Shown here: one piece after another, positions 31,509 to 46,566 of the stretch
Layout: each line of letters begins with the position of its first letter
Position numbering within the stretch: the stretch's first letter is position 1
Origin: Bifidobacterium asteroides
GTDB taxonomy: Bacteria; Actinomycetota; Actinomycetes; Actinomycetales; Bifidobacteriaceae
Direction of reading: 5' to 3'
DNA: 64,000 nt
Assembly: GCF_009683175.1 (NCBI RefSeq)
Contig: NZ_WKKW01000001.1
Location: forward strand, 558,001 to 622,000
The notes under the pieces: model-generated
The model's database searches: none
Seen by the model: only the letters and a program-made list of their open reading frames with translations
Told to the model about the DNA's origin: nothing
Translations under genes and position numbers: made by a program

Positions 31509-34500
31509 GGATCATTCCTGCAGATGCGGGGAACACCAGCAGTATTTGTATACTCCTAAACTGTTGAGGTCCACTTCTTTGTATCATCCTCGCGGATGTA
31601 GGGAGCACAAGTTGGCAGTCCGTGTCGCGGTACGCTGATTGGGATCATCCCCGCAGATGCGGGGAGCACGTGTCGGAACCGAGCGGCAGTAGGAAATTGC
31701 CGGGATCATCCCCGCAGATGCGGGGAGCACCATTATATATACCGCCTTATCTGCCAAGAATTAGGATCATCCCCGCAGGTGCGGGGAGCACAACCAGGTG
31801 GCTAACCGGTTCAAGTGGAATCACGAATCATCCCCGCAGATGCGGGGAGCACAAGCGTCCCATGTGACGTTGCACAGGGAGATTGGGATCATCCCCGCAG
31901 ATGCGGGGAGCACAGCATCCATAAGATGGTCGTCGCCATCCTTGGGGGATCATCCCCGCAGATGCGGGGAGCACCGTGTTGATAAGACCCGCAGTGGTCG
32001 CCCCGTAGGATCATCCCCGCAGATGCGGGGAGCACTATTGGCGCATCACCTCGCCACGCGCACCACTGGGATCATCCCCGCAGATGCGGGGAGCACACCT
32101 CCTCGACAGTGATATGCAGTTGGTCGAGCGGATCATCCCCGCAGATGCGGGGAGCACCGGGACAGACCTTCGAGCAATGGGCCCAGACCGGGATCATCCC
32201 CGCAGATGCGGGGAGCACGCATCCGGCAAGATCGACACCTTCGAGGACGGCGGATCATCCCCGCAGATGCGGGGAGCACTGGATCGTATGCCATGCAGAA
32301 TTTTCGTAACGAGGATCATCCCCGCAGATGCGGGGAGCACTCTTTCCGCCAAACGGCTTTATCTGCTGACCTTGGATCATCCCCGCAGATGCGGGGAGCA
32401 CGTGGGCGTGGCAGCCGTCAAGGCCTTCATGGACGGATCATCCCCGCAGATGCGGGAAGCACGAACCACATTACTGTGTGCATTGCGGACAGCGGGGATC
32501 ATCCCCGCAGATGCGGGGAGCACTGCCGCGAATGAACTAAAGTTGAACGACCATAAGGATCATCCCCGCAGATGCGGGGAGCACTACCGGTATCCATGGT
32601 TTCCCCTTTCCTCGCCAGGGATCATCCCCGCAGATGCGGGGAGCACCCGGAAAGTACAGGATACACAGACTGTTCAGGAGAATCATCCCCGCAGATGCGG
32701 GGAGCACGCCGGCCTCTGGTGTTGTGCGCATCTGCCGTCCGGATCATCCCCGCAGATGCGGGGAGCACAGAATGATTTTCGGCAGATTTTCATACGCCAT
32801 AGGATCATCCCCGCAGATGCGGGGAGCACGCAAGCTGATGGAAGGCAGAACCATTAAAAAGGGGATCATCCCCGCAGATGCGGGGAGCACGAAATGAATT
32901 GTATACAGCAAACGATGCGAATGGGATCATCCCCGCAGATGCGGGGAGCACGCTGAAAAGTCCATCCGTCGTCATTACAAGGACGGATCATCCCCGCAGA
33001 TGCGGGGAGCACGATAATCTGGATTTGGACATGGAGGGACCGGAAGGATCATCCCCGCAGATGCGGGGAGCACTGTTCCGCATTCGCCTTATCAATTTTT
33101 GAGTCAGGATCATCCCCGCAGATGCGGGGAGCACGCGCCCGGCTTGATTGCGGATCGCATTCAAAAAGGATCATCCCCGCAGATGCGGGGAGCACCTTAT
33201 TTTGAGATTCGCGGAGAGACAGAAAATAGGATCATCCCCGCAGATGCGGGGAGCACTAGTCGGCGGACGGGGACACCCCGTACCCGGGGGGATCATCCCC
33301 GCAGATGCGGGGAGCACGATATGAGCCGGCAGAAAGACAAAGGAACGAAGGGATCATCCCCGCAGATGCGGGGAGCACCTCGTGGCAGGTCCTCGCAGAT
33401 CGGGCATTTGGGGATCATCCCCGCAGATGCGGGGAGCACTGGCACACCACCTTTCAGCAGATAAGCGGCCTAGGATCATCCCCGCAGATGCGGGGAGCAC
33501 AGCTTATCGCCGTCAGTCCTGTCCAAGTACTTGGGATCATCCCCGCAGATGCGGGGAGCACTCTATGCTGATCTGCCGGGGTCGTTTTGGCGGAGGATCA
33601 TCCCCGCAGATGCGGGGAGCACAGTGCCTTGGATACGGCCTGAGCTGTATCGAGCGGATCATCCCCGCAGATGCGGGGAGCACCCCATCATCCGATTCTT
33701 CATAGTGGGTGACTGCGGATCATCCCCGCAGATGCGGGGAGCACGCCTTGAAGGCTGCTCGTTCTGACATCCATACGGGATCATCCCCGCAGATGCGGGG
33801 AGCACGCAAATCACTTGTGAAATACTTCAATGTGTGCCGGATCATCCCCGCAGATGCGGGGAGCACTGCGTGCTGCCGCCGGAGAGCATGAGCGCGGTGG
33901 GATCATCCCCGCAGATGCGGGGAGCACGAAAATTCAGGTATCTCCCAGCTAGGCATGCAGGGATCATCCCCGCAGATGCGGGGAGCACACCAAAACCTCA
34001 CCAACTCATTTAGTCTCGGCAGGATCATCCCCGCAGATGCGGGGAGCACCAACGCCTATCTGCATTTTTGGTCGGCCAACGGGGATCATCCCCGCAGATG
34101 CGGGGAGCACATACCGGATGATGATACTCATCTCTACCACCCAGGGATCATCCCCGCAGATGCGGGGAGCACCCACCCGCTCACAAAAGCAGATGGACAT
34201 GTTGCAGGATCATCCCCGCAGATGCGGGGAGCACGTCTGGGCGTTGTAGCACCCCTGATAGGAAGTGGGATCATTCCCGCAGATGCGGGGAGCACGGAGG
34301 CAGGGGATGTGGTCATGTGGCGTGGCGGGGATCATCCCCGCAGATGCGGGGAGCACCGTCCCCCAAATTCCCATAAAACAAGATTCAAGGGATCATCCCC
34401 GCAGATGCGGGGAGCACGGTCGGGGAGCGTGGGCCGAGTCCCCTTGGTCCGGATCATCCCCGCAGATGCGGGGAGCACGTTTCGGTTCCTTTCGGGCTGA

Positions 34501-36381
34501 CTGGGAATGCGGATCATCCCCGCAGATGCGGGGAGCACGACTCGGCAGCCGGAGGCCCGCATGGCATGCTGGGATCATCCCCGCAGATGCGGGGAGCACA
34601 TGCTCACCAGACGGGTGTGGACCGGACTGCCAGGATCATCCCCGCAGATGCGGGGAGCACCCTCTAGCTGCAGAATGATCGAACTCGAACATGGGATCAT
34701 CCCCGCAGATGCGGGGAGCACGGTCTGCATGTCGTCACCACACTAAGTGTCACAGGATCATCCCCGCAGATGCGGGGAGCACTTATTTAGGCTATCCACG
34801 TATGACTTACAGGCATTAGTAGAACAGAGGATCATCCCCGCAGATGCGGGGAGCACATCTCCACTCCTACGGTGACGCTGGATGTGACGGGATCATCCCC
34901 GCAGATGCGGGGAGCACAATTTTCGATTGATAACCAAATCGATGAAGACAGGATCATCCCCGCAGATGCGGGGAGCACGTCTTATCAGAAGTTCCAGAAA
35001 TTGTTGAATCAGGATCATCCCCGCAGATGCGGGGAGCACTAAAACTGACCTCAGACCAACCCATATGCACCGGGATCATCCCCGCAGATGCGGGGAGCAC
35101 TCCTCCGTGAATGCATACCGTAGCTGACTTTCGGGATCATCCCCGCAGATGCGGGGAGCACGTAGAGGGGGCGACTCGATAAATGGCTGGCAAAGGATCA
35201 TCCCCGCAGATGCGGGGAGCACATCACAAGGAGGCAATCTCCCTTTCGCCGTTTGGGATCATCCCCGCAGATGCGGGGAGCACTGGTGGCTGGACGACAA
35301 TCCAGGTTCGGACAAAGGATCATCCCCGCAGATGCGGGGAGCACAGCACGGCCTTGTTGTTGTCATGCGTCAGGTCAGGATCATCCCCGCAGATGCGGGG
35401 AGCACTCAATCGTATCGCCGGAATGTATGTCAATCAACGGATCATCCCCGCAGATGCGGGGAGCACTCATCATGTACATCCGATCCGACCTAACATCTAG
35501 GATCATCCCCGCAGATGCGGGGAGCACCTTTCCTCTTGGCTACCCAGACTTTACCCATGAGGATCATCCCCGCAGATGCGGGGAGCACCTCTACGATACT
35601 GGTAGCCAGATCATCAATGGGGGATCATCCCCGCAGATGCGGGGAGCGCCGCCCCAACACTTGCCTCACAAGTTGAAAATAAGGATCATCCCCGCAGATG
35701 CGGGGAGCACAGCATGTCTTGCATGGTCTTTCGCAATGACTGAGGATCATCCCCGCAGATGCGGGGAGCACTATCACACGGCCCCTAGCAGTGAGTAGGA
35801 AAAAGGATCATCCCCGCAGATGCGGGGAGCACTGGCTGAGAGTAAATGTGACAATTGCGGCAGAGGGATCATCCCCGCAGATGCGGGGAGCACAAGTTGC
35901 TTAGTTTGGATCAGATATTGGTTAAGGGATCATCCCCGCAGATGCGGGGAGCACATTCACTCATTTTCTTCCCTTACGTTTGATTGAGGATCATCCCCGC
36001 AGATGCGGGGAGCACGTATACCTTGTTGGATCGTCCATGTCAAAATTGGGATCATCCCCGCAGATGCGGGGAGCACAGGCGAGCGGCTTCTGGAGCGTCG
36101 TCAACGGAAGGATCATCCCCGCAGATGCGGGGAGCACCCACCGGCGACACTGGCAACACCGCCACCTGGAGGATCATCCCCGCAGATGCGGGGAGCACAT
36201 TAGCTGCTGCTGTTGTAACAGCATCGGCAACGGATCATCCCCGCAGATGCGGGGAGCACATACTTGGCAGTAGTATTGTTATAAGTGTTAAGGGATCATC
36301 CCCGCAGATGCGGGGAGCACGACACCAGCGGCACCCTCAATCAGCGGCAGTGAGGATCATCCCCGCAGATGCGGGGAGCAC
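31509..36381 (-). CRISPR. Type I-E CRISPR array, about 80 repeats
   Basis: The repeat unit is 28 nt, on the plus strand GGATCATCCCCGC, then AGAT, then GCGGGGAGCAC. Spacers are mostly 33 nt, giving a 61-nt period that can be followed through the block. By start positions I count 78 intervals from 31581 to 36354, plus a degenerate repeat at 31509, so about 80 repeats and 79 spacers. Read on the minus strand the repeat is GTGCTCCCCGC...GCGGGGATGATCC, the usual type I-E form, so transcription runs towards lower coordinates from a leader next to cas2. The two lowest repeats (31509, 31581) carry several changes, as expected for the old trailer end. Single-base variants occur at about 31764, 31825, 32436, 34268 and 35622. 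Two spacers are over-long: 31537-31580 (44 nt) and 34783-34828 (46 nt). Confidence 0.98.
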
Positions 36382-36589: not shown

Positions 36590-36973
36590 TCAGCTGGATC
36601 GCGAGCGCCGGAACTTTGCCGCTCGTCTGTACTTGCTTGCATTGCTCCAACCAGTTCGACGGTATCGGTTTCCACCACCCGCAGATCTGCCATCGCCGCC
36701 TTCAGCAGGCCTCTCCATAAGAGTCAATCCTTCACAGTCGACTGGGTTCCAATCTGAGCGATGCACCTTGAAACTCAGATGCTACTCATTGCGGGCAGAA
36801 TAGACCATGATGGCCTTTCCGGTTCGGATCTGCCCTGTGATACGTTCCCAAAGCCGGTCCCGGACCCTAGCGGTGACTTGGCCAACGAAAACTCCAGAGG
36901 CTATCTCTAGGAGCCATCGGGTCAAATCCCCGCGCAGGCCCAGTGGGCATGCCGTCAAAACAACGACCACCAT
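36590..36973 (-). pseudogene. cas2: Cas2 (type I-E) interrupted by an in-frame amber codon
   Basis: Cas2 is the structural half of the Cas1-Cas2 spacer integrase. The frame from the ATG at 36971-36973 reads 63 residues (MVVVVLTACPLGLRGDLTRW to MVYSARNE) and meets TAG at 36782-36784. Beyond the stop the same frame keeps perfect Cas2 sense: HLSFKVHRSDWNPVDCEGL, TLMERP, then a basic GWSNASKYRRAAKFRR tail, ending in TGA at 36590-36592 (127 codons in all). The family has Gln at the stopped position (NEQ-LSFKVH), so a single CAG-to-TAG change explains it. The start overlaps the cas1 stop (ATGA). Unless the codon is suppressed or this is a sequence error, Cas2 is truncated after about half its length and adaptation should fail. 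Confidence 0.85.
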
Positions 36974-37962
36974 CAGCTCATCCCCTCCTCTTCATCTGCA
37001 TAGGATCTCCCAGCCGGGACGCCGCCGACCTTCTCATCCCAGAGCTCCAGGGTCCCGCCCTCTTCATCAGAAGAGGAAGAAACAGGTGCTCCAAGCAGTC
37101 GTGGAATATCGCGAGCCATCCGTCGCATGAGCGAGAGGTCATAGACAGCATCACGCATGGCGTGCCGGGTGGCCGAGCCGATGTCGTCGGGCTGCTTTGC
37201 AGCGGTTTTAAAGGCTACAGGAATCGATATCTCGGCCTTGTACAGATCAGCCACATCATAGACAAAGGAGCGCTCATGGCCGACATGGACGAATCCCAAG
37301 CCCGGTGAACACCCAAGCGCCACGATCACCGAGTGAGCGATTCCGTACAAGCAGGTATGAGCAGCCGACAGGGCCTTATTGATCTCGTTGCCGGCATCGA
37401 AATCCTCGTGATCATAGGTTCGCTTATCCCAAGCTACGCCAGTCAGTTCCGACCAGTGACGGTAGACCTGTCGAACTCGGGCGCCTTCACGTCCACGCAG
37501 CTGCTGCATGGTACAAGAGCTGACATCTTCGTTAAGGAAGCGCATCTGATACATGGCCCTCGCCACAGCCAAACGCTTACGGGTGTTGGAGACCAAAGCC
37601 GCCTGCCTTTGTAGAAGGGCAGCCGAATGCGTCAGAGGACGGCCGAACGCGTACATCCTCACACCGCGCTCCCCCACCCATACCACGCTGGCACCGTTGT
37701 CGCCGATAACCACCATGGCCTGATGACTGACGGTAGTGCCGGGACCCAGCATGAGCACACCTAGATTGGCGGCAGGCAGCCGTATAGTCCCGGTATCCCT
37801 GGTAATCGCGATGGCATTGTCCTCGCGAGTGATAACACAGTGCTCGAAATAAGCGAACGAGAGCCTATCCTCGGCCCGCACCAGATCACCCAATTCAGGA
37901 GGGGGACTGCCGGGAATCTCGGTTCTCCCGGCAGCCCCCATAGACTGATGATCCCCAGTCAT
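36973..37962 (-). CDS. cas1: CRISPR-associated endonuclease/integrase Cas1, type I-E
   Basis: A 329-residue integrase that, with Cas2, inserts new spacers at the leader end. The metal-binding residues are recognisable: Glu159 in GREGARVRQVYR, His226 in GFVHVGHERSF, and Asp236/Asp239 in VYDVADLYK. The spacing (67 residues from Glu to His, then 10 and 3) equals that of E. coli Cas1 (E141, H208, D218, D221). The frame is open to 38031, but the ATG at 37960-37962 overlaps the cas6e stop (ATGA) and is taken as the start. The C-terminal 30 residues are acidic and Ser-rich. Its partner gene cas2 is broken. Confidence 0.93.
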   Translation of the reverse strand: MTGDHQSMGAAGRTEIPGSPPPELGDLVRAEDRLSFAYFEHCVITREDNAIAITRDTGTIRLPAANLGVLMLGPGTTVSHQAMVVIGDNGASVVWVGERGVRMYAFGRPLTHSAALLQRQAALVSNTRKRLAVARAMYQMRFLNEDVSSCTMQQLRGREGARVRQVYRHWSELTGVAWDKRTYDHEDFDAGNEINKALSAAHTCLYGIAHSVIVALGCSPGLGFVHVGHERSFVYDVADLYKAEISIPVAFKTAAKQPDDIGSATRHAMRDAVYDLSLMRRMARDIPRLLGAPVSSSSDEEGGTLELWDEKVGGVPAGRSYADEEEGMS

Positions 37963-38648
37963 CGGATCGGAGCCACCGTCAGCAACCCACAGCCGAAACT
38001 CTTGGCCCTGCCGATGCCCTGCCGCAGGCAACGCTGAAAAGCTTGAGCATCAGTTACACGAAGCTGTCCATCGAACTGGGCTGTAACCAAGGTGACCTTG
38101 CCGCCCCCGTGGTCGAACTTCTCCTTGCGGCGCTGGGAAACAAGGCAGGACGGCCCATGACCCTCATCCGAACTGCCTAGGAGGGCAAACCCGTTGCGTT
38201 CACTGTGCTTCTCCAGCCAAGACAGCTGATAATCCGCAGTGACATGACCCATCACCTTGCCGACTACTGCATGATTGGACCGTCGCCCCTTGTCCATATA
38301 GACCTGTCTGGCAGGATTGGCCCGGAGCCTGAAGGCCCACTCCTGTCCCTTGGCTATATGCGTGATCAAGGGCTCGTAGTCCTTCACCTCCCACTCAGCA
38401 TGGGTCGGCCAACCAGCCTGCTCAACAATATGGGTGAAGTCAGGACGCTCAGGACTCACCACATACAACCAGGTCGAGTCTCCTTCACGGGAGAAATCCA
38501 ATCTCCACAAGATACGTCCGCCATCGCCACTGCGTACAGCACCCGGCGGGAAGGACTTCTCCACGGCGGCATGAAGACGGTAAGGCGAGGCGATCAGTTG
38601 CTTGGCCGCATACCGCGCAGTGTTCAACGGCATTCTGGATATATACAT
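37959..38648 (-). CDS. cas6e: Cas6e (CasE/Cse3), crRNA-processing endoribonuclease
   Basis: A 229-residue type I-E Cas6 with two ferredoxin-like folds. It cuts the precursor at the 3' base of each repeat hairpin and stays bound to the crRNA 3' stem. Landmarks are the N-terminal YISRMPLNTAR, a candidate catalytic His in YRLHAAVEKSFP, a Lys/Arg-rich basic middle and the C-terminal Gly loop GIGRAKSFGCGLLTVAP. AGGAGG lies 5 bases before the ATG, with 9 bases after cas5e. The repeat stem CCCCGC...GCGGGG is the substrate expected for this enzyme. Confidence 0.93.
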   Translation of the reverse strand: MYISRMPLNTARYAAKQLIASPYRLHAAVEKSFPPGAVRSGDGGRILWRLDFSREGDSTWLYVVSPERPDFTHIVEQAGWPTHAEWEVKDYEPLITHIAKGQEWAFRLRANPARQVYMDKGRRSNHAVVGKVMGHVTADYQLSWLEKHSERNGFALLGSSDEGHGPSCLVSQRRKEKFDHGGGKVTLVTAQFDGQLRVTDAQAFQRCLRQGIGRAKSFGCGLLTVAPIR

Positions 38649-38657
38649 GCCTGCCTC

Positions 38658-39371
38658 CTAGAAAAACGACATTGGATCATGATCCGGAACGGCTTTAGTC
38701 CGCTGCTCGTCTGGGCCAGGACCATCCGGATTGGGGATTCTGTATCGGCAAACCGTTCTGACCGCATATCTGCGAGCTGCACCGAAACTCAGCGGAGCAT
38801 CTGCCTGTGAAGAGACAACCCCGTTGTCTTCGTCCTTGACACAGACCGCATCACAGACCACCTCCAGTCGGCAGCCCTGATGGCGCCTCTTGTACCAAGA
38901 AGCAGCCATCCAGGGATGGGTGCGCAGCGCCTGGTCCACACGGTCCTCCTGGACCAACCCAAGCGAGACCGGGTAATCCGGCGGGCAAGCCCGGCGACCC
39001 AAATATAATGGCCACCGAGGATGACGCAGAGCCTGGTCCAGACCTTCCAGAAGTGCAGAATCAGCGCCTAAAGCCACCAGGAATTTCGCATCGGATAAGT
39101 AGTACCGTGTGGTTAATGGCATGGCTTTGACGTTGACACCATGCTCTGTTTGCATGTCATTGACCAAGATGCCCGGTTGATCGATGCGGACACCGAAGCT
39201 GAGATGTAGCAGGTCCTCAATGTCGTCACCGCGTTGACGCCCTTGCGCCGAAGCAAGTAGACCAATCACCGCGCTCTTGGTGGGCTCCCGTTGTGTGGTT
39301 CGAATCGTAAAACGCGAGGAACTCCCCCAGGACTGCAAAGGACCCGACAATCGCAACAGCAATATGCTCAT
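38658..39371 (-). CDS. cas5e: Cas5e (CasD), Cascade subunit binding the crRNA 5' handle
   Basis: A 237-residue RAMP-fold protein. The N-terminus MSILLLRLSGPLQSWG and the following TTQREPTKSAVIGLLASAQG are strongly conserved in Cas5e. It caps the 5' end of the crRNA in Cascade and holds the Cas8e side near the PAM. It starts 2 bases after the cas7e stop with CAGGAG inside cas7e, so translation is coupled. Length and order are normal for type I-E. Confidence 0.93.
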   Translation of the reverse strand: MSILLLRLSGPLQSWGSSSRFTIRTTQREPTKSAVIGLLASAQGRQRGDDIEDLLHLSFGVRIDQPGILVNDMQTEHGVNVKAMPLTTRYYLSDAKFLVALGADSALLEGLDQALRHPRWPLYLGRRACPPDYPVSLGLVQEDRVDQALRTHPWMAASWYKRRHQGCRLEVVCDAVCVKDEDNGVVSSQADAPLSFGAARRYAVRTVCRYRIPNPDGPGPDEQRTKAVPDHDPMSFF

Positions 39372-39373
39372 AG

Positions 39374-40510
39374 CTACTCCTGCTGACCCAGCACACGCAT
39401 AGTCTCAGCATCCACCTGGCTGGTCAGATCCTTGAGACCGACAGACTCAGCCACCGGAGCCAAGTCCTGCGCTGACAAATCCGTGCTGATCGCCCAAGCG
39501 TGCACAGGCTGCTCATCATAGACATCCTGAATCCTGCGCAACTCCTCAACCAGCCTGCGGCCAGCGACTTGCGAGATAGGCCGGTCACGCTCGGCCACAA
39601 CCGGACGTTCAAAGGCTTCCACAGCATTAATAGGCTGGCTATCACGGAAGGCCACAATGCAGGTCTCGGGCAGAGTCCTGTTGGCATAGGAATTCTGCTT
39701 GCCGGTCGGCATGGACCGGATGAAAGCCTCTACGAAGACCGAAGCCACTCTCGCAGTGGCCTCCGCATTGCCGATCTGCTCCTGCAAGGCATCCAGGTTC
39801 ACGGTCGCGTAGCGATACAGTGTGGATGAGTTGAAACCGACGGAGTCTATCATAGCCGCACCGGCGTTGTCCGCTTCCGTGCAGTCATCAGCGGCGGTGA
39901 AATAGTCGTACTCAGGCTTGATGGCATCCACGGAGATGGCGTGAGCCACCTGAGCGCTGGCATCCGTATTCAGGTCAGGAGCATCAGCCAGCATACGGCC
40001 GAACAGGGCGATGTCGACCGCCTGCTCACCGTGGAAGACCGCCGATACTTCCTTCTTCATAGCCGAATCCGGAGCCTTGGCCAGGTCCTTTCCCTGATCC
40101 ATCCACTCCAGTGCGATAGTAGCCAGCTTGCCGATTTCGGTGTTGCCGATGAAGATCAGATATTGAGTGACCGGCTTGCCACTGGCTGCTCCTGCACGAG
40201 TGGAAGCGACGACCTTAACGCCAGTGGCCTGCAAGACCATAGAAGCGTAGTTTTCAGCCCGGTCCGCCGATTCAGGCCGTTGGTTAACCATGGCTTTCGC
40301 GATCAGCTCGACTGCATTCTTCGTCCGCACCCCCAACTGTTTCTTGTCCAGCAAAGACTTGAAGGTCTCGCGCATGGCCCGTTTCCAGGCCTGGCTGGAG
40401 ACTCGTGAGCGCAAGACACCGCCATACTGGGCGGTCTTGGGATTGCCTGTCTCGTCACGATTGATGTTGCTCGGCGGGACGTTCTGAACTGCATAGATAT
40501 CCATAAACAT
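39374..40510 (-). CDS. cas7e: Cas7e (CasC/Cse4), Cascade backbone subunit
   Basis: A 378-residue protein that polymerises along the crRNA, each copy covering 6 nt and flipping out every sixth base. The start MFMDIYAVQNVPPSNINRDE is diagnostic, followed by PKTAQYGGVLRSRVSSQAW and KRAMRETF. The ATG has AAGGAG 8 bases upstream. A 90-base gap separates it from cse2, the longest inside the subunit genes after cas8e-cas3, and it holds a possible extra promoter, which would fit the need for six copies per complex. Confidence 0.95.
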   Translation of the reverse strand: MFMDIYAVQNVPPSNINRDETGNPKTAQYGGVLRSRVSSQAWKRAMRETFKSLLDKKQLGVRTKNAVELIAKAMVNQRPESADRAENYASMVLQATGVKVVASTRAGAASGKPVTQYLIFIGNTEIGKLATIALEWMDQGKDLAKAPDSAMKKEVSAVFHGEQAVDIALFGRMLADAPDLNTDASAQVAHAISVDAIKPEYDYFTAADDCTEADNAGAAMIDSVGFNSSTLYRYATVNLDALQEQIGNAEATARVASVFVEAFIRSMPTGKQNSYANRTLPETCIVAFRDSQPINAVEAFERPVVAERDRPISQVAGRRLVEELRRIQDVYDEQPVHAWAISTDLSAQDLAPVAESVGLKDLTSQVDAETMRVLGQQE

Positions 40511-40530
40511 GGCTTTTCTCCTTAATATTC

Positions 40531-40558
40531 TTTATAAAAAGACCGGTGATCTTGTACA
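40531..40558 (-). promoter_or_regulatory. Possible internal promoter before cas7e
   Basis: On the minus strand TGTACA (40553-40558) and TATAAA (40531-40536) are 16 bases apart, in the unusually long cse2-cas7e gap. The match is moderate and there is no other evidence. Confidence 0.3.
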
Positions 40559-40600
40559 TATGTATCTGCTAGATGGCGAATCATTCGAGACGACCTGTCA

Positions 40601-41356
40601 TCATTGACCGTGCTGCTGGACCTCAGCTGTTCTCTTGGCCTTCTCACCCTCTTTCGTCTCCGCGGTCTTGTGTACGGCGTAATACTGCCGAGCCCAACGG
40701 TGAAAGACAGAGGCCCTCCGACCGGACAGCTGCAGCAGATAAAGATCCTGGGCGAAAGCCTGATAGTCCAGCTTCACATCCTGATTCCTCATCATCCTTA
40801 TCAGCGAATAAAGCTGATGCCGGATGCCGTCGAAATCAGGAGCATCCTCCATGATTTGTAGCCGTCGAAGAACCGGGGTGGCCTTGGAACCGTCCTGGTC
40901 AGCGTCAATCATGCGGCATGCGCGGCCGAAACTGTAGCGGAAGTGCTCGGATTGCGCCCGCTGCTTAGCCTCGGCGCCATTCCCTGTGCCCTTACGATCA
41001 GACATCCAGGCCATACCCTGAGATTTCGACTGCTGATGAAGCGCATACATCTGCAAGGCGGTGGCAATAGCCCGCGTTTCAGTGACTATGTTGGGGTCGT
41101 TGTCGAGGGCTGGGTTTCCCAAGGTATCCTGTGGCCAATCCTCATATAGATCAAACCCCACATTCATCCACCGCACCCTGCCATCGTCAATTCCTCGGCG
41201 CAGCAGAGCCAAATGAGCCCTGGCCACGCTGCTGGCCTGAACCGTGTAGGCGTACTGCAATTTTCCGATCCGGTAGTTGGCATACCGCCCGACAGCCTGT
41301 TTGCGGTCGTCGACTGACAAGACATGATTGTTCGTCATGGTGGCTGCAGTCATCAT
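40601..41356 (-). CDS. cse2: Cse2 (CasB, Cas11), Cascade small subunit
   Basis: A 251-residue, mostly helical protein that forms the dimeric belly of type I-E Cascade and stabilises the displaced strand. Cse2 features include RRGIDDGRVRWMNVGFDLYE, KGTGNGAEAKQRAQSEHFR and the FGRACRMIDADQD region before the basic helix LRRLQIMEDAPDFDGIRHQL. The C-terminal 20 residues are charged and probably flexible. The ATG overlaps the cas8e stop by 4 bases and has AAGGAGG 4 bases before it. Confidence 0.9.
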   Translation of the reverse strand: MMTAATMTNNHVLSVDDRKQAVGRYANYRIGKLQYAYTVQASSVARAHLALLRRGIDDGRVRWMNVGFDLYEDWPQDTLGNPALDNDPNIVTETRAIATALQMYALHQQSKSQGMAWMSDRKGTGNGAEAKQRAQSEHFRYSFGRACRMIDADQDGSKATPVLRRLQIMEDAPDFDGIRHQLYSLIRMMRNQDVKLDYQAFAQDLYLLQLSGRRASVFHRWARQYYAVHKTAETKEGEKAKRTAEVQQHGQ

Positions 41357-43110
41357 TGAACCTCCTTTTCGTTTGCGGTCTCGCCCTCACGCGAGGGAAG
41401 TGGACCTAGATATTTATTCAATTGGCTTAGGAATCTATCGAAGATCTGCTCAGAAGATCGGGCACCATTGGCCTTGGGCAGGAAAGACGGCGCCGGAGAC
41501 TGATTACGGTACTCACCAGCTACTGCAATCAGATCCCGATGGATGGCCTGGAACCAGTCATTACGGTAACGTTCGATGTCCTCTGAAGGACCGAACTCCG
41601 CAATCCTCTGTCTGAACAGCTGATCCAGGGAAGCATATGCACGCTCCTTGACGCGAGCTATTGCGGCATAGAAGCGGTCCTTCTGCGCTTTGTCGCCTGC
41701 AGATTGGTTCAATTGGGCAACCATGGAGTCCAGTGCCTTGACGGAATCCTCAGTACGCTCAACAACCTGAACCACCACATCCACGGCGGCAGCATCCAAA
41801 TGAAGCAGTTGAAGGTTTGCATCGAGCGAATCATCAATGGCATCCGAGAAGAAGCTGTTCTGCGGACCATAGATCATGCTCTGGGTATGAATGCGAGCCA
41901 TCTGCATCACTTTTCCGGACCCGGCATCATCCTGATTCCAATTCAATAGAGTCTCAACCCATCGAATAACGCCAGGCCGTGTGTCATCAGTCTGACCCGC
42001 ACCGTTGCTTCCCGCGCTGATCAAAGGTTGCAGCTGCCGCCAAATGGCCTTGTCGGAAGTGAATGTGACTGGCATGCGAGGAGCCGTCGGCAGGCCCAGT
42101 TTCTTCCGCAGGTTCTCGCTGCCGTAACGCCAGGCCGTCATAGGCTCATAAGCGTCCATGTTGTCAGCGCTGATGACATCGCCATAGCAGACGATGATGC
42201 CGACTACACGGGAACCTGAATCATCGGGCACCAACCTCACCCTGCGTGATTGCAGAGTGAGCATGTCCACAATGCCTGTGGGTTGATAGTCAGGATTCAT
42301 GTCAGGCCCGGCCGGCTTACGTTCCCAGGGCGCCAAATCACCAGGCTTGCCGAACCAGATATCATCATCCCCACGGCCTCGGGGATTGATCAAGCACCAG
42401 TTGAGCATCAGAGTGGCGAACAAGTTGTCCTGTTCCAAATAAACATTGCCCAAGGCGCCCAGCCAGCCGGTTCCCACCTTGGATTTGGGTGGATAAACCC
42501 TGTTGCGCAGAATATGGGTCTCCCCATCTACCGGCGATTTGATGCCTGCAGGGTCATAGGCCTGGAGAAAGACCAGCCATCGGGCGGCCTCAGGCAAGGT
42601 AAGCGAGTCCAGGTCGTTCTTGGCACGCATGGAAAAGAGAAACTTCTTGGGCTTAGGCACGTCAGCCTGAAGTTCGCCAATGCTGTCATATTCTTTATCC
42701 TCGGACGAGTAGGTCAATCCTGGCGTCTGGTAAAAAGGATGCTCCGGGTTGAACAAATCAAACCGGTCATGATAGCGCTCAAGGTAATCGTCAATTACTT
42801 GAGGGTCGAACTGCCCAGTCTGCCAAAGCGTCCACCACAGCTGCAGCAAAGCCGTCGGATCATCATCCCCGATCATGGGTTGATACCGCTGGGCATATGC
42901 CTGGTAGAGCACGGCTTCGACGGTTCTCAGGAGAGGCAAGGTCTGCTGAGGCATGTCACTTGAAATCTCACGGATTCGATGGGCCTCGACCAAAAGGTCA
43001 CGCAGGGAGACCAGGCCGACGCGTCCTTTCAAGTATGTAACCCTGATCCAGGGTTGCTCCAAGAGATTGAACGACGGCCGACCTCCGCCGGTCGCTCCAA
43101 CATCATTCAT
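41353..43110 (-). CDS. cas8e: Cas8e (CasA/Cse1), PAM-recognising large subunit
   Basis: A 585-residue large subunit of type I-E Cascade. It recognises the PAM, starts strand opening and recruits Cas3. The N-terminal FNLLEQPWIRVTYLKGRVGL and SLRDLLVEAHRIREI are typical of Cse1, as are LFNPEHPFYQTPGL and WLVFLQAYDPAGIKSP. The C-terminal helical bundle ends in an acidic tail. A 72-base gap separates it from cas3, and AGAAAGGA lies upstream of the ATG. It is coupled to cse2. Confidence 0.92.
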   Translation of the reverse strand: MNDVGATGGGRPSFNLLEQPWIRVTYLKGRVGLVSLRDLLVEAHRIREISSDMPQQTLPLLRTVEAVLYQAYAQRYQPMIGDDDPTALLQLWWTLWQTGQFDPQVIDDYLERYHDRFDLFNPEHPFYQTPGLTYSSEDKEYDSIGELQADVPKPKKFLFSMRAKNDLDSLTLPEAARWLVFLQAYDPAGIKSPVDGETHILRNRVYPPKSKVGTGWLGALGNVYLEQDNLFATLMLNWCLINPRGRGDDDIWFGKPGDLAPWERKPAGPDMNPDYQPTGIVDMLTLQSRRVRLVPDDSGSRVVGIIVCYGDVISADNMDAYEPMTAWRYGSENLRKKLGLPTAPRMPVTFTSDKAIWRQLQPLISAGSNGAGQTDDTRPGVIRWVETLLNWNQDDAGSGKVMQMARIHTQSMIYGPQNSFFSDAIDDSLDANLQLLHLDAAAVDVVVQVVERTEDSVKALDSMVAQLNQSAGDKAQKDRFYAAIARVKERAYASLDQLFRQRIAEFGPSEDIERYRNDWFQAIHRDLIAVAGEYRNQSPAPSFLPKANGARSSEQIFDRFLSQLNKYLGPLPSREGETANEKEVQ

Positions 43111-43182: not shown

Positions 43183-46100
43183 TCAGCTCTTTTCGTCCTC
43201 ATCGGCTTTCACACAAGTAAGCCCATCCTTACGGGTGTATCCGATAAGGTAACCATGTACAGTGGTGACAAATCTCCGGCGACCCGAATCAGATTTTTCC
43301 TCTTCCAAGACCAAAGGTAAACAGCCATCCAGCCAAGGAGATTGATGCCATGCATCAACACAGTCACTGGCTCGGAGCTCTAGTTCATTGATCAGCGCAT
43401 CAATGTCGTGACAGATGCGATCCGGCAGATTTACCGAGCAACGCAACACCACTTGCGCCAGCCGGTTTTCAGGTTCGGTTTTTGTGGGCACAGGAGCCCC
43501 GCAAGGTACTGTATCGCTTCCGATCCATGGCAGAAGTGCATACTCATCACCGCACCGGCGCAGAAGCACCACCTCCACCGAATCATGAGTGTCTCTGACA
43601 GCCTGTCTGGCTTTGGCTTCAGACCTGGCGTCCACAGTGCCTGTAAACAGGTCCACCAAGGTGTGAGACTGGTGCAGCAGACGGGCCGAATCTTTCATCA
43701 AATAGACTTGGGCCTTATCGATCTCTTTTGCATCCTTTTGGGCACGCTTGCGTACATCCAGCCGATACCGTTTTTGCCAGGCTTTGGGTATCAACTGTGC
43801 AATTGCATCAGAGTCATAAGCCGTGCGGACCAGCGGAGAGATGTCACCAGGAAGATGCAGCAAGCGGTGGGCGCTAACTGTTTGCAGACAAAGCACAGCA
43901 AGAGCTTCAAGCAGGGATGCCGGTGGATAGACGCTGTCTATATAGTCAGGAAATACTGGCCCATCCGCGTTCCAGGAGGCAATGCCTCGCAGATAGCAGA
44001 AGGCTTTCCGCAGACCAGCTGGACGGTCCCCCTCACCTTGTCCTCTGCGATGGCGATGCAGACGACCCATGCGCTGTAACAACAGATCGACCGGAGCTAT
44101 ATCGGTGACCATAAGGTCGAAGTCGATGTCCAGGGATTGCTCCAGAACCTGCGTGCCCACGACAATCAGCCGGTGAGGACGTCCTCCATTGGCTAGGGTT
44201 GCATCCGGACCAAGGAGTTCTCGGAGTTCTCGTTCGTTATCCATACGATCCAGGTCGATGAAGCGTGAATGCGTCAGTCTGACCTGGTCCGGACCAAATA
44301 CATTGGTCAAAGCTGCAGCAGTTTGCTGGGCACGGTCTACGGTGTCGCAGATCACAGCGGCGCAGCCACCTTCAGCCAGACGCTCGTGCAGCAAGTCTGA
44401 CAGATGCTCAAGATCGTCGTCGATGACACGACAATCGATGTCCACCGCACGACCCGAAGGATGCACCGAGCTAGTCCGGCAGGTCGTTCCAGACGTGTAA
44501 GTAATCAGCGGATAAGCATACAGGTCGTCAGGGTCCTTTTCCTCATTAAGGGGCTGCCTGTCACCCGGCTGTGAAGAGTCAGAAGCCTTATCATTACGTT
44601 GCTTGGAGTAGCGGTCAGCAAATGCCTCCATGCTTGCAAAACGACGCGGTGCAACTTGGGGGGACTGCTCCGCATGGTTACTCGACCCGCCGAGCACCGA
44701 GGCATACCCCTTAATATAAGCGTCCACCAGCTCACGTCGCAGCGATGCAGGCAGGGTTGCCGACAGAAGGATGACTGGGTTGTGGAATCCTCCCAACCAT
44801 TCCAGGGTCCTCTTGAGGTATTCACGCATGTAGGTGTCGTAAGCGTGGCATTCGTCGATGATGACAACTTTGTTGGCTAGAGCCAGCTGCCGCAGACTGA
44901 CGTGCTTCATCTGCAGAGCGGCCATGAGCACCTGATCGATAGTGCAGATCAGGAAGTTAGCCAGCACCCCTTTCTTCCTGCCTCTCAGCCAGTCATTCAC
45001 CACTGCCTCGGGATAGACGGCCTTTTGTGCACCAGAGCCTTGGAGGACATCCTCATCGAAGACTGATGATGTGGCCGAACCCTCGGCTGAAGTCGCCATT
45101 GACATGAATTCCCTGTTGAGAGCAGCTTTGCCATGTCTGAGCGAGGTGGATTTCTCAGAGCGTCCCTCAGGCTGAGGCAATCTATCGATCCAGCTCTTGC
45201 ACCGTGAGAACATGGCATCGGTGGTGGCCATTGTCGGCAGGGCCACGCAGACTCCTCCCCTGCCTGTTCGTTCCGCCAGGATTTCCGCACAGGCCAGGGC
45301 TGCTTCGGTCTTGCCTTCGCCCATGGGCGCTTCGATGACCATAATGCCTGGATCCTTGGTCGTTTCCGCCAAATGTGCGGCCTGCTCCTGGACTGGTCTG
45401 GGATTGGCACCTGCCGGCAGATCAAACCTGGAGGCGAAGCGCTCCCCTATGCTGATCTGCTCGTGAATCGGTTGCCACTTAGGAGACAGATCGAGATTAC
45501 GCCATCCGCGCTCCTGACGTGCCTTAAGACCAGCTCTTGTACGTACTGAATTCATCCGGTCCCAGGTCTGTTCGTCATAGCTCTTAGGGTTGAGCGGCAC
45601 CAAGGGAAATAGAGCATCGTCGCTGTTGCTGGCGATCCAGTCGGCCATAATGACCAGCCCCTCCAGCACAGATTCGGCATATATGTTTAGACACCTTCTG
45701 CTCAGCCGAGCGAAGTCATCATCACTAAGCTCACACTGCTTGGCCACGAATTCAATCAGTTGGCGCTGGACTTCAGCCCAGTCCTCATAACCCTGAGCAG
45801 TGCCCATCCGCACATCCATATCGGACTTGCATAGAGCCTGACGCGTAGGAGGCTGACCATGATGCCCTCCAACGACACAGGCATAGGATTCGGCCACTGA
45901 CTTGCTCCAATTCCGTACCTGCGTCAGATACGACTCCAGAATCCTTTGGCCCGCTATGGGATGGGTAGGATAATTGGTATCCGTAATCGGAACATCAGGG
46001 AACCGCAGACCAGCCTGTCTGGGCTTCCACTGCAAGGAGAGATCCTGCATACCAGGCGCATGCGTCAACGGCTTACTTTGGAAAACTGGGGTTGCCTTAC

Positions 46101-46350
46101 CGATATCATGGACACCGGTGATAAACATGCAGACTTTGCGAGCCAATTCCGGATCACCAACATCGCGGATGATGATCTCTCGGGTGCCCCGGGGCACCCA
46201 GTCACGCCAAAGATTCCTAGCCACTGCAGCGGAATCGCTCAAATGCGCGAAAACTTGTAGCCAGTCATCCTCGTTAAGCAGATTAGTCTTGCCCCACAGG
46301 GACATGGCTATAGCGTCCAGACCCAAGTCTGTTGGTATCACTCCGCTCAT
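43183..46350 (-). CDS. cas3: Cas3 helicase-nuclease, type I-E
   Basis: A 1055-residue protein that nicks and degrades DNA bound by Cascade. An N-terminal HD nuclease domain (HDIGKATPVFQ near residue 82, HPIAGQRILE, VVGGHHGQPP near 160) is followed by an SF2 helicase: Walker A GEGKTEAAL near 343, DECHAYDTY near 497, SATLP near 535, and the C-terminal helicase part with VGTQVLEQSLDIDFD near 725 and QRMGRLHRHRRG. A C-terminal domain ends the protein. HD and helicase motifs look intact, so interference should be possible. It is the first gene of the cas operon, and the crRNA-like element lies 130 bases before its start. Confidence 0.95.
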   Translation of the reverse strand: MSGVIPTDLGLDAIAMSLWGKTNLLNEDDWLQVFAHLSDSAAVARNLWRDWVPRGTREIIIRDVGDPELARKVCMFITGVHDIGKATPVFQSKPLTHAPGMQDLSLQWKPRQAGLRFPDVPITDTNYPTHPIAGQRILESYLTQVRNWSKSVAESYACVVGGHHGQPPTRQALCKSDMDVRMGTAQGYEDWAEVQRQLIEFVAKQCELSDDDFARLSRRCLNIYAESVLEGLVIMADWIASNSDDALFPLVPLNPKSYDEQTWDRMNSVRTRAGLKARQERGWRNLDLSPKWQPIHEQISIGERFASRFDLPAGANPRPVQEQAAHLAETTKDPGIMVIEAPMGEGKTEAALACAEILAERTGRGGVCVALPTMATTDAMFSRCKSWIDRLPQPEGRSEKSTSLRHGKAALNREFMSMATSAEGSATSSVFDEDVLQGSGAQKAVYPEAVVNDWLRGRKKGVLANFLICTIDQVLMAALQMKHVSLRQLALANKVVIIDECHAYDTYMREYLKRTLEWLGGFHNPVILLSATLPASLRRELVDAYIKGYASVLGGSSNHAEQSPQVAPRRFASMEAFADRYSKQRNDKASDSSQPGDRQPLNEEKDPDDLYAYPLITYTSGTTCRTSSVHPSGRAVDIDCRVIDDDLEHLSDLLHERLAEGGCAAVICDTVDRAQQTAAALTNVFGPDQVRLTHSRFIDLDRMDNERELRELLGPDATLANGGRPHRLIVVGTQVLEQSLDIDFDLMVTDIAPVDLLLQRMGRLHRHRRGQGEGDRPAGLRKAFCYLRGIASWNADGPVFPDYIDSVYPPASLLEALAVLCLQTVSAHRLLHLPGDISPLVRTAYDSDAIAQLIPKAWQKRYRLDVRKRAQKDAKEIDKAQVYLMKDSARLLHQSHTLVDLFTGTVDARSEAKARQAVRDTHDSVEVVLLRRCGDEYALLPWIGSDTVPCGAPVPTKTEPENRLAQVVLRCSVNLPDRICHDIDALINELELRASDCVDAWHQSPWLDGCLPLVLEEEKSDSGRRRFVTTVHGYLIGYTRKDGLTCVKADEDEKS

Positions 46351-46437
46351 TGTTCCCCCGTTCTCAGCTTAGCGATCCTGCCAATTGGACAACTTCGTTG
46401 TAACAATTTTTAAGCATAGCACATAGACTTGGAATAT

Positions 46438-46469
46438 ACTAAACTTATAATTTCATAATGTCACAAGTT
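46438..46469 (-). promoter_or_regulatory. Likely cas3 promoter and target site of the crRNA-like guide
   Basis: The strip is AT-rich, and on the minus strand TTGTGA (46461-46466) and TTTAGT (46438-46443) are 17 bases apart; other -10 boxes such as TATATT lie a few bases on, so the exact promoter is uncertain. Positions 46447-46467 match the guide of the miniature crRNA (46501-46521) at 17 of 21 bases. The two bases preceding the match are AA (46468-46469), the PAM known for similar 28-nt-repeat type I-E systems. Confidence 0.6.
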
Positions 46470-46479
46470 ACTTTATTTG

Positions 46480-46549
46480 CCCTGACTATTCAGGGAACAC
46501 ATAAAATCCTAATGACACAAGGGATCATCCCCACCCACGCGGGGAACAC
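46480..46549 (-). ncRNA. Miniature crRNA-like gene upstream of cas3 (repeat, 21-nt guide, degenerate repeat)
   Basis: On the minus strand 46549-46522 is one 28-nt repeat, GTGTTCCCCGCG/TGGGTGGGG/ATGATCC, identical to the array repeat at 23 of 28 positions and still able to form the 6-bp hairpin. Then come 21 bases (46521-46501), then a degenerate repeat whose first 8 bases are the same GTGTTCCC and whose hairpin CCCTGA-ATAG-TCAGGG (46495-46480) keeps the 6-bp, 4-base-loop geometry. Cas6e cleavage at both stems would give handle, guide and 3' hairpin, a complete crRNA with a guide 12 nt shorter than the array's. The guide resembles the cas3 promoter (see 46438-46469). Layout and target match crRNA-like RNAs that lead Cascade to repress its own cas genes in some type I systems. 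Transcription is inferred. Confidence 0.7.
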
Positions 46550-46566
46550 ACCTGAAAAACAGGCTG

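Follow-up and report, generated by a model that had tools for sequence, protein, structure and literature searches.

The window (the whole stretch of 64,000 nucleotides of Bifidobacterium asteroides DNA that was analysed) contains the full gene set of a type I-E CRISPR-Cas system including cas1 and cas2, in which the effector genes cas3, cas8e, cse2, cas7e, cas5e and cas6e are all represented by open frames, together with a CRISPR array and a separate repeat-bearing element upstream of cas3 (Table 1). Repeat matches number 81, the solitary repeat of this element included, and the encoded Cas3 is near that of B. mellis (98 percent in the best segment). The cas2e frame (36676-36973, minus strand) yields 63 residues (TIGR01873), being interrupted by an in-frame stop at codon 64. 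Acquisition of spacers by this strain may be compromised. The sequence that continues in frame past the stop resembles the usual end of Cas2e. When the array spacers were compared with three B. asteroides phages from the honeybee gut, 14 of the 79 found a match at no more than 8 mismatches, and the best phage match was preceded by AA for 10 of these 14 spacers (of the other four, three had CA, AG and AC, and in one AG and AC were tied); against these three phages a single shuffled spacer set gave 0 matches.

Table 1 Features of the type I-E locus and of the element upstream of cas3 (positions in the window)
Feature	Position	Strand	Remark
CRISPR array	31509-36381	-	typical 28-nt repeat, 33-nt spacer
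cas8e, cse2, cas7e, cas5e, cas6e, cas1, cas2	36782-43110	-	
cas3	43183-46350	-	presumed first repressed gene
Probable cas3 promoter	46413-46442	-	TTAGTA, 18 nt, extended -10 TGC-TATGCT (46421-46413); read by eye
Target (protospacer) CTTGTGACATTATGAAATTAT	46447-46467	-	upstream of cas3; protospacer positions 1-20 = 46447-46466
Target PAM AA + C (AAC)	46467-46469	-	AA = 46469-46468
Degenerate second repeat GTGTTCCCTGAATAGTCAGGGCAAATAA	46473-46500	-	6-bp stem CCCTGA/TCAGGG
Guide CTTGTGTCATTAGGATTTTAT	46501-46521	-	21 nt
7-nt handle ATGATCC of solitary repeat	46522-46528	-	
Solitary CRISPR repeat GTGTTCCCCGCGTGGGTGGGGATGATCC	46522-46549	-	28 nt; CreR-type element
Small hairpin directly upstream of solitary repeat	46551-46563	-	CCTG-TTTTT-CAGG

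Element and target are all read on the minus strand, which is the cas3 strand, in the order small hairpin, solitary repeat, guide, degenerate repeat, target and cas3. A search of the 2.14 Mb genome at up to 3 mismatches recovers the solitary repeat a single time, and the differences between this repeat and the array repeat GTGCTCCCCGCATCTGCGGGGATGATCC are located mainly in the loop and stem. Throughout this work the base at 46521 is counted as the eighth handle base (position 0), so that 46520-46501 represent guide positions 1-20. Predicted folds of the element gave z values of -2.9, -4.2, -3.7 and -1.7, and the hairpin preceding the repeat shows one both-sided change, being CCTG/CAGG in the window versus CCTC-TTCTT-GAGG in three relatives. 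Considering that stem counts are few, and that the 2 stem pairs with a both-sided change were equalled by 58 of 500 shuffles, the support for structure is weak.

Such an arrangement recalls CreR, a cas-regulating RNA of type I-B, I-E and V-A systems (Liu et al. 2023 Cell Host Microbe, PMID 37659410; as described in PMC13131331 and PMC12737573), in that a crRNA-like unit bearing a CRISPR repeat adjoins the cas operon and in that its guide is partly complementary to the presumed cas promoter region, next to a functional PAM. The initial annotation had stated that crRNA-like autorepressors are known in principle for some type I systems, which is correct but understated, CreR being an established class that according to PMC13131331 includes type I-E.

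As claimed in that annotation, the guide and the region upstream of cas3 are identical at 17 of 21 positions on the same strand, with mismatches at positions 6, 12, 15 and 16 only in the register proposed, and the target is directly preceded by AA, the dinucleotide that was independently recovered from the protospacers of the array. Positions 6 and 12 are indeed among the bases flipped out by Cas7 in the Cascade complex of Escherichia coli, as reported in PMC5965380. The motif TTGTGWCATTA is found 2 times in the window (in guide and target) against an expectation of 0.01, and AAN-TTGTGNCATTANGA has one perfect match genome-wide, which falls in the cas3 upstream region; at up to 2 mismatches, this pattern gave 6 genome matches versus 6 in a reversed control.

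The -35-like TTAGTA of the promoter proposed for cas3 is weak, and the target lies just upstream of it. The extended -10 TGCTATGCT is conserved in relatives, taking the form TGCTATACT in genome G010, where 11 additional nt, about one helical turn, separate the target from the -10. A promoter scan of the minus strand returned only GTGACA-17-TAGTAT (46464-46436), which overlaps the target, and did not report the preferred promoter. Between target and cas3 there is also a 17-codon ATG frame (46364-46417, minus strand), the ATG of which overlaps the proposed -10; it is open in G007 and G019 and not kept in G010.

The N-terminus of this Cas3 was matched in 9 of 27 genomes of the genus, four of which carry the element (the window's genome, G007, G019 and G010). 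Across these four, guide positions 1-20 are identical at 19 of 20, the sole variable one being position 17, where a T to C change in the G010 guide is accompanied by a C at position 17 of the G010 target. The target varies at 6, 12, 15 and 17 only and the PAM is invariant, against 14 variable positions among the 30 nt that follow the target and 13 among the 28 of the repeat; guide position 0 varies freely (C, G, T, C). The initial annotation had proposed covariation as a check on its reading, and in these four close genomes, few as they are, guide and promoter do not diverge independently and a both-sided change is seen at position 17, so that the guide-target match appears to be kept by selection, as would be expected of a CreR.

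The next nearest cas3 loci, those of G020 and G022 (L003 and L004; 73 percent over the N-terminus and 76 percent over query residues 4-440), gave no element in the 450 nt upstream of cas3 or in the cas3-cas8e gap; a repeat-like stretch in these loci of B. polysaccharolyticum and B. mizhiense was rejected and read as coding sequence. As to the remaining three of the nine genomes, a guide match in G001 (L103), preceded by AG instead of AA and with no second repeat recognised, was left out of the counts, G006 (L130) shows only a match preceded by TC and lacks a second repeat, and G021 (L106) has no guide match in its cas3 intergenic regions. Three genomes without this cas3 (G003, G008 and G011) share homology with the window up to 46521, the base adjoining the solitary repeat, where it stops. 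The I-E locus of G003 is replaced (L142, from 6763 on) by a type I-C system (Cas3, Cas8c, Cas7c, Cas4, Cas1c), and its homology with the window, which breaks off at the last repeat of the array (31536), starts again at 46521, next to the solitary repeat, a pattern suggestive of a swap of the cas cassette between the repeats at its two ends.

The comparison was extended to 75 loci, mostly from Bifidobacteriaceae and Coriobacteriia, comprising the window, 41 named loci and 33 further loci (16 duplicates having been dropped). For each locus the 450 nt upstream of cas3 and the cas3-cas8e gap were searched: each handle-like motif counted as a candidate, and the 21 bases following it were compared with all sites in both regions, the PAM being left free and the score being the number of matches at the 12 read positions (1-5, 7-11, 13-14) with a threshold of at least 10. 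Repeat-guide-repeat candidates numbered 41, of which 35 (in 35 loci) match their own region at 10-12 of 12. Each of these 35 elements has a single top site, preceded in 35/35 by AA (AAC 28, AAT 6, AAG 1), a dinucleotide that accounts for 6.2 percent of dinucleotides in the regions and for about 15 of 284 chance-level top sites; a rerun in which ties were not broken in favour of AA encountered no ties among matches of at least 10. The covariation check thus extends to distant species, where dissimilar guides match their own cas regions. Of the 327 handle-like motifs that lack a second repeat, 41 score 10 or more, only 10 of them with AA, and part of these 41 is taken for elements with an unrecognised second repeat. 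Overall, at least one AA-flanked match of at least 10 was present in 45 of the 75 loci; none was found in the other 30, several of which are divergent or cut off.

Guides differ between species and rarely fit the regions of other species. In a guide swap with 26 dissimilar guides, preselected for a good match of their own, a score of at least 10 was reached in the own region by 25 of 26, in regions of other species in 4 of 650 comparisons, and by 10 of 5,200 shuffled guides. The 26-guide set includes one candidate (L006, handle GTGCACC) that proved false, and a Catenulispora candidate (L042; score 12, AAG, without a second repeat) was dropped by judgement before the tally of mismatches over 32 guides described below.

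For the 26 guides, targets were chosen with positions 1-14 weighted alike, and the mismatches are concentrated at position 6 (14/26) and position 12 (18/26), with none at 1, 4, 5 and 7, 1 to 3 at each of 2, 3, 8, 10 and 11, and 4 at 13; read positions are not perfectly kept, positions 9 and 14 having 7 mismatches each among the 26. Further along, position 18 has 19 mismatches, and 15-17, 19 and 20 have 10 to 12. When targets were instead chosen by ignoring 6, 12 and 18 (32 guides), mismatches at these positions amounted to 23, 25 and 23 of 32, against 16 of 320 at the remaining positions of 1-11. Because selection of the 32-guide set favours mismatches at 6 and 12, the 26-guide tally is the fair figure for these two, while position 18 lies outside selection in both tallies. 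The mismatch peaks at 6, 12 and 18 coincide with the bases flipped out by Cas7 in E. coli Cascade, in which the last handle base is likewise kinked (PMC5965380); the latter would fit the free variation at guide position 0.

The distance between handle and second repeat is 20, 21 or 22 nt in 35/35 elements (1, 16 and 18 cases), which makes these guides 11-13 nt shorter than the window's 33-nt spacer. Mismatches in the seed are negatively correlated with those at 13-17 (rho -0.60, partly forced by selection) and with those at 15-17, which lie outside selection (rho -0.54, p 0.006, n 25, unadjusted for kinship); among 32 dissimilar elements seed mismatches again go with fewer at 15-17 (rho -0.50, p 0.004, kinship unadjusted).

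With respect to placement, the position upstream of cas3 holds for the window but not for most of the group, where the usual site of the element is the cas3-cas8e gap (27/35), the remaining 8 being upstream of cas3. For the 27 gap elements the target is also in the cas3-cas8e region, on the opposite strand, and for the 8 upstream elements it is located upstream of cas3 in 6 and in the cas3-cas8e gap in 2; guide and target copies are on the same strand in 5 of the 35 loci and on opposite strands in 30. L107 and L031 represent the two loci with an element upstream of cas3 and a target in the gap. The L107 guide fits its gap with mismatches, within positions 1-16, only at 6 and 12, and behind the element come a hairpin and a T-run resembling an intrinsic terminator, so L107 may have a CreR gene that stands by itself and has its own transcript end.

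Twelve Bifidobacteriaceae loci have their target on the cas8e side and downstream of the element; in 10 of them the AA of the PAM is, on the complementary strand, the first TT of a TTNNNN-17-TANNNT promoter pattern, which is matched by 2 of 229 other TT sites in those regions; this -35/PAM pattern was framed only after inspection of the target data. In 16 Coriobacteriia loci (between L013 and L035) the target is found just after cas3, upstream of the element, and therefore the RNA may derive from the transcript that it would repress.

Taken as a whole, the element is very probably a CreR-type, Cascade-dependent autorepressor of the cas genes, as judged from sequence; that it is produced as RNA, loaded onto Cascade and acts in repression is what we infer from established type I-E and CreR biology. 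Other readings were weighed against this one. Operators may take the form of direct repeats that precede a promoter, and the two 21-nt segments, which are so arranged at the window's cas3, might be paired sites for a protein repressor of cas. Sites bound by one protein would be expected to be alike across species, and this reading is disfavoured because the segments differ, each guide matching its own site; in addition, mismatches peak at 6, 12 and 18, only 5 of the 35 loci have both copies on one strand, and the other copy proved to be preceded by AA in 35/35 although this had not been required (the handle beside one copy having been a selection criterion), all of which renders operators highly improbable. 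The least probable alternative, to which we attach almost no weight, is that the repeat is a remnant, left behind by an array or by a cas locus since lost, and that the match is accidental. The three genomes that lack this cas3 and keep the flank to the end of the same repeat (G003, G008, G011) speak in its favour, but guide and target are both gone with the locus in these same genomes, a match of such size is rare (as seen with the shuffled guides), and conservation of the guide contrasts with drift in the surrounding repeat sequence. Operator pair and array relic were both rejected on the basis of the guide swap, the conservation and the 75-locus survey.

A further possibility is that the RNA acts as a CreA-like antitoxin on a toxin encoded nearby (CreTA) instead of on cas; such a toxin might be a very small RNA or peptide from the 96 nt between target and cas3. 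The architecture is the same, CreTA being a mini-CRISPR with repeat-like sequences, a partial guide match and Cascade-mediated repression (PMC9458426), and the 17-codon frame, open in G007 and G019, could be such a peptide. However, the target in CreTA is a toxin RNA gene, whereas that in the window is the cas upstream region, which holds the sole perfect genomic target; the guide matches of related loci fall in cas regulatory regions, and the frame, the ATG of which overlaps the proposed -10, is not kept in G010. We consider a toxin-antitoxin pair very unlikely, if slightly less so because of this small frame.

For the favoured CreR-type autorepressor, the following course of events would apply. 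A short crRNA-like RNA consisting of repeat, 20-nt guide plus handle base, and degenerate repeat would be transcribed from the cas strand, trimmed by Cas6e and loaded by Cas5e, Cas7e and Cas8e to form a short Cascade. This complex would bind the AA-flanked target upstream of the cas3 promoter through positions 1-5, 7-11 and 13-14, thereby covering the promoter region and lowering cas transcription, with pairing too limited to destroy the chromosome. In E. coli Cascade an AAG PAM and about 5 seed bases suffice for binding, and interference requires far more extensive pairing (PMC5904413); given these thresholds, binding without destruction is expected from a 14-base partial match and a short guide. 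Repression would ease when array crRNAs compete for Cascade or when an inhibitor disables it. CreR repression is reported to respond to titration by crRNAs and to be lifted by anti-CRISPRs (PMC12737573, PMC13131331), and by analogy we infer the same for the window's system.

The likeness to CreR comprises a crRNA-like RNA, limited complementarity to a cas promoter and Cascade as the repressor, in the descriptions given by PMC13131331 and PMC12737573. The window's element differs in that its target is upstream of cas3, its guide belongs to the 20-22 nt class, and it is known here by comparison. Mini-arrays with standalone repeats (Shmakov et al. 2023 NAR) reportedly carry spacers partly complementary to cas promoters, that of cas8 in particular; most of the present family fits this usual target, while the window element targets the cas3 side. 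Workman et al. 2021 are said to have described autoregulation of Cas9 by a natural single-guide RNA in type II-A, which is likewise RNA-guided autoregulation of cas genes, there by Cas9 with a long tracrRNA form, here by a mini-array. A literature search, the coverage of which did not include Liu 2023 and Shmakov 2023, found no paper with both words CreR and Bifidobacterium; CreR in type I-E is already in print (PMC13131331), and the bifidobacterial element is not claimed to be unreported.

More tentatively, and with slightly less than even confidence, the elements may constitute a type I-E autorepressor family of Bifidobacteriaceae and Coriobacteriia that employs a dedicated short Cascade (guide of 20-22 nt, about two Cas7 fewer), in which the PAM of most Bifidobacteriaceae would be the TT of the cas8e -35, leaving the promoter unable to escape without self-damage, and in which total pairing would be held near a set point, a seed mismatch being offset at 15-17. 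The -35/PAM overlap, if confirmed, would represent a simple design that makes the repressor hard to escape. The 35 to 45 loci provide a natural record of the guide bases read by Cascade in living cells, and in a harmless gut genus with native type I-E systems the level of cas expression versus crRNA load and anti-CRISPR attack is directly testable. The findings suggest that type I-E systems in these gut bacteria have long been under RNA-guided self-control and that selection has preserved it.
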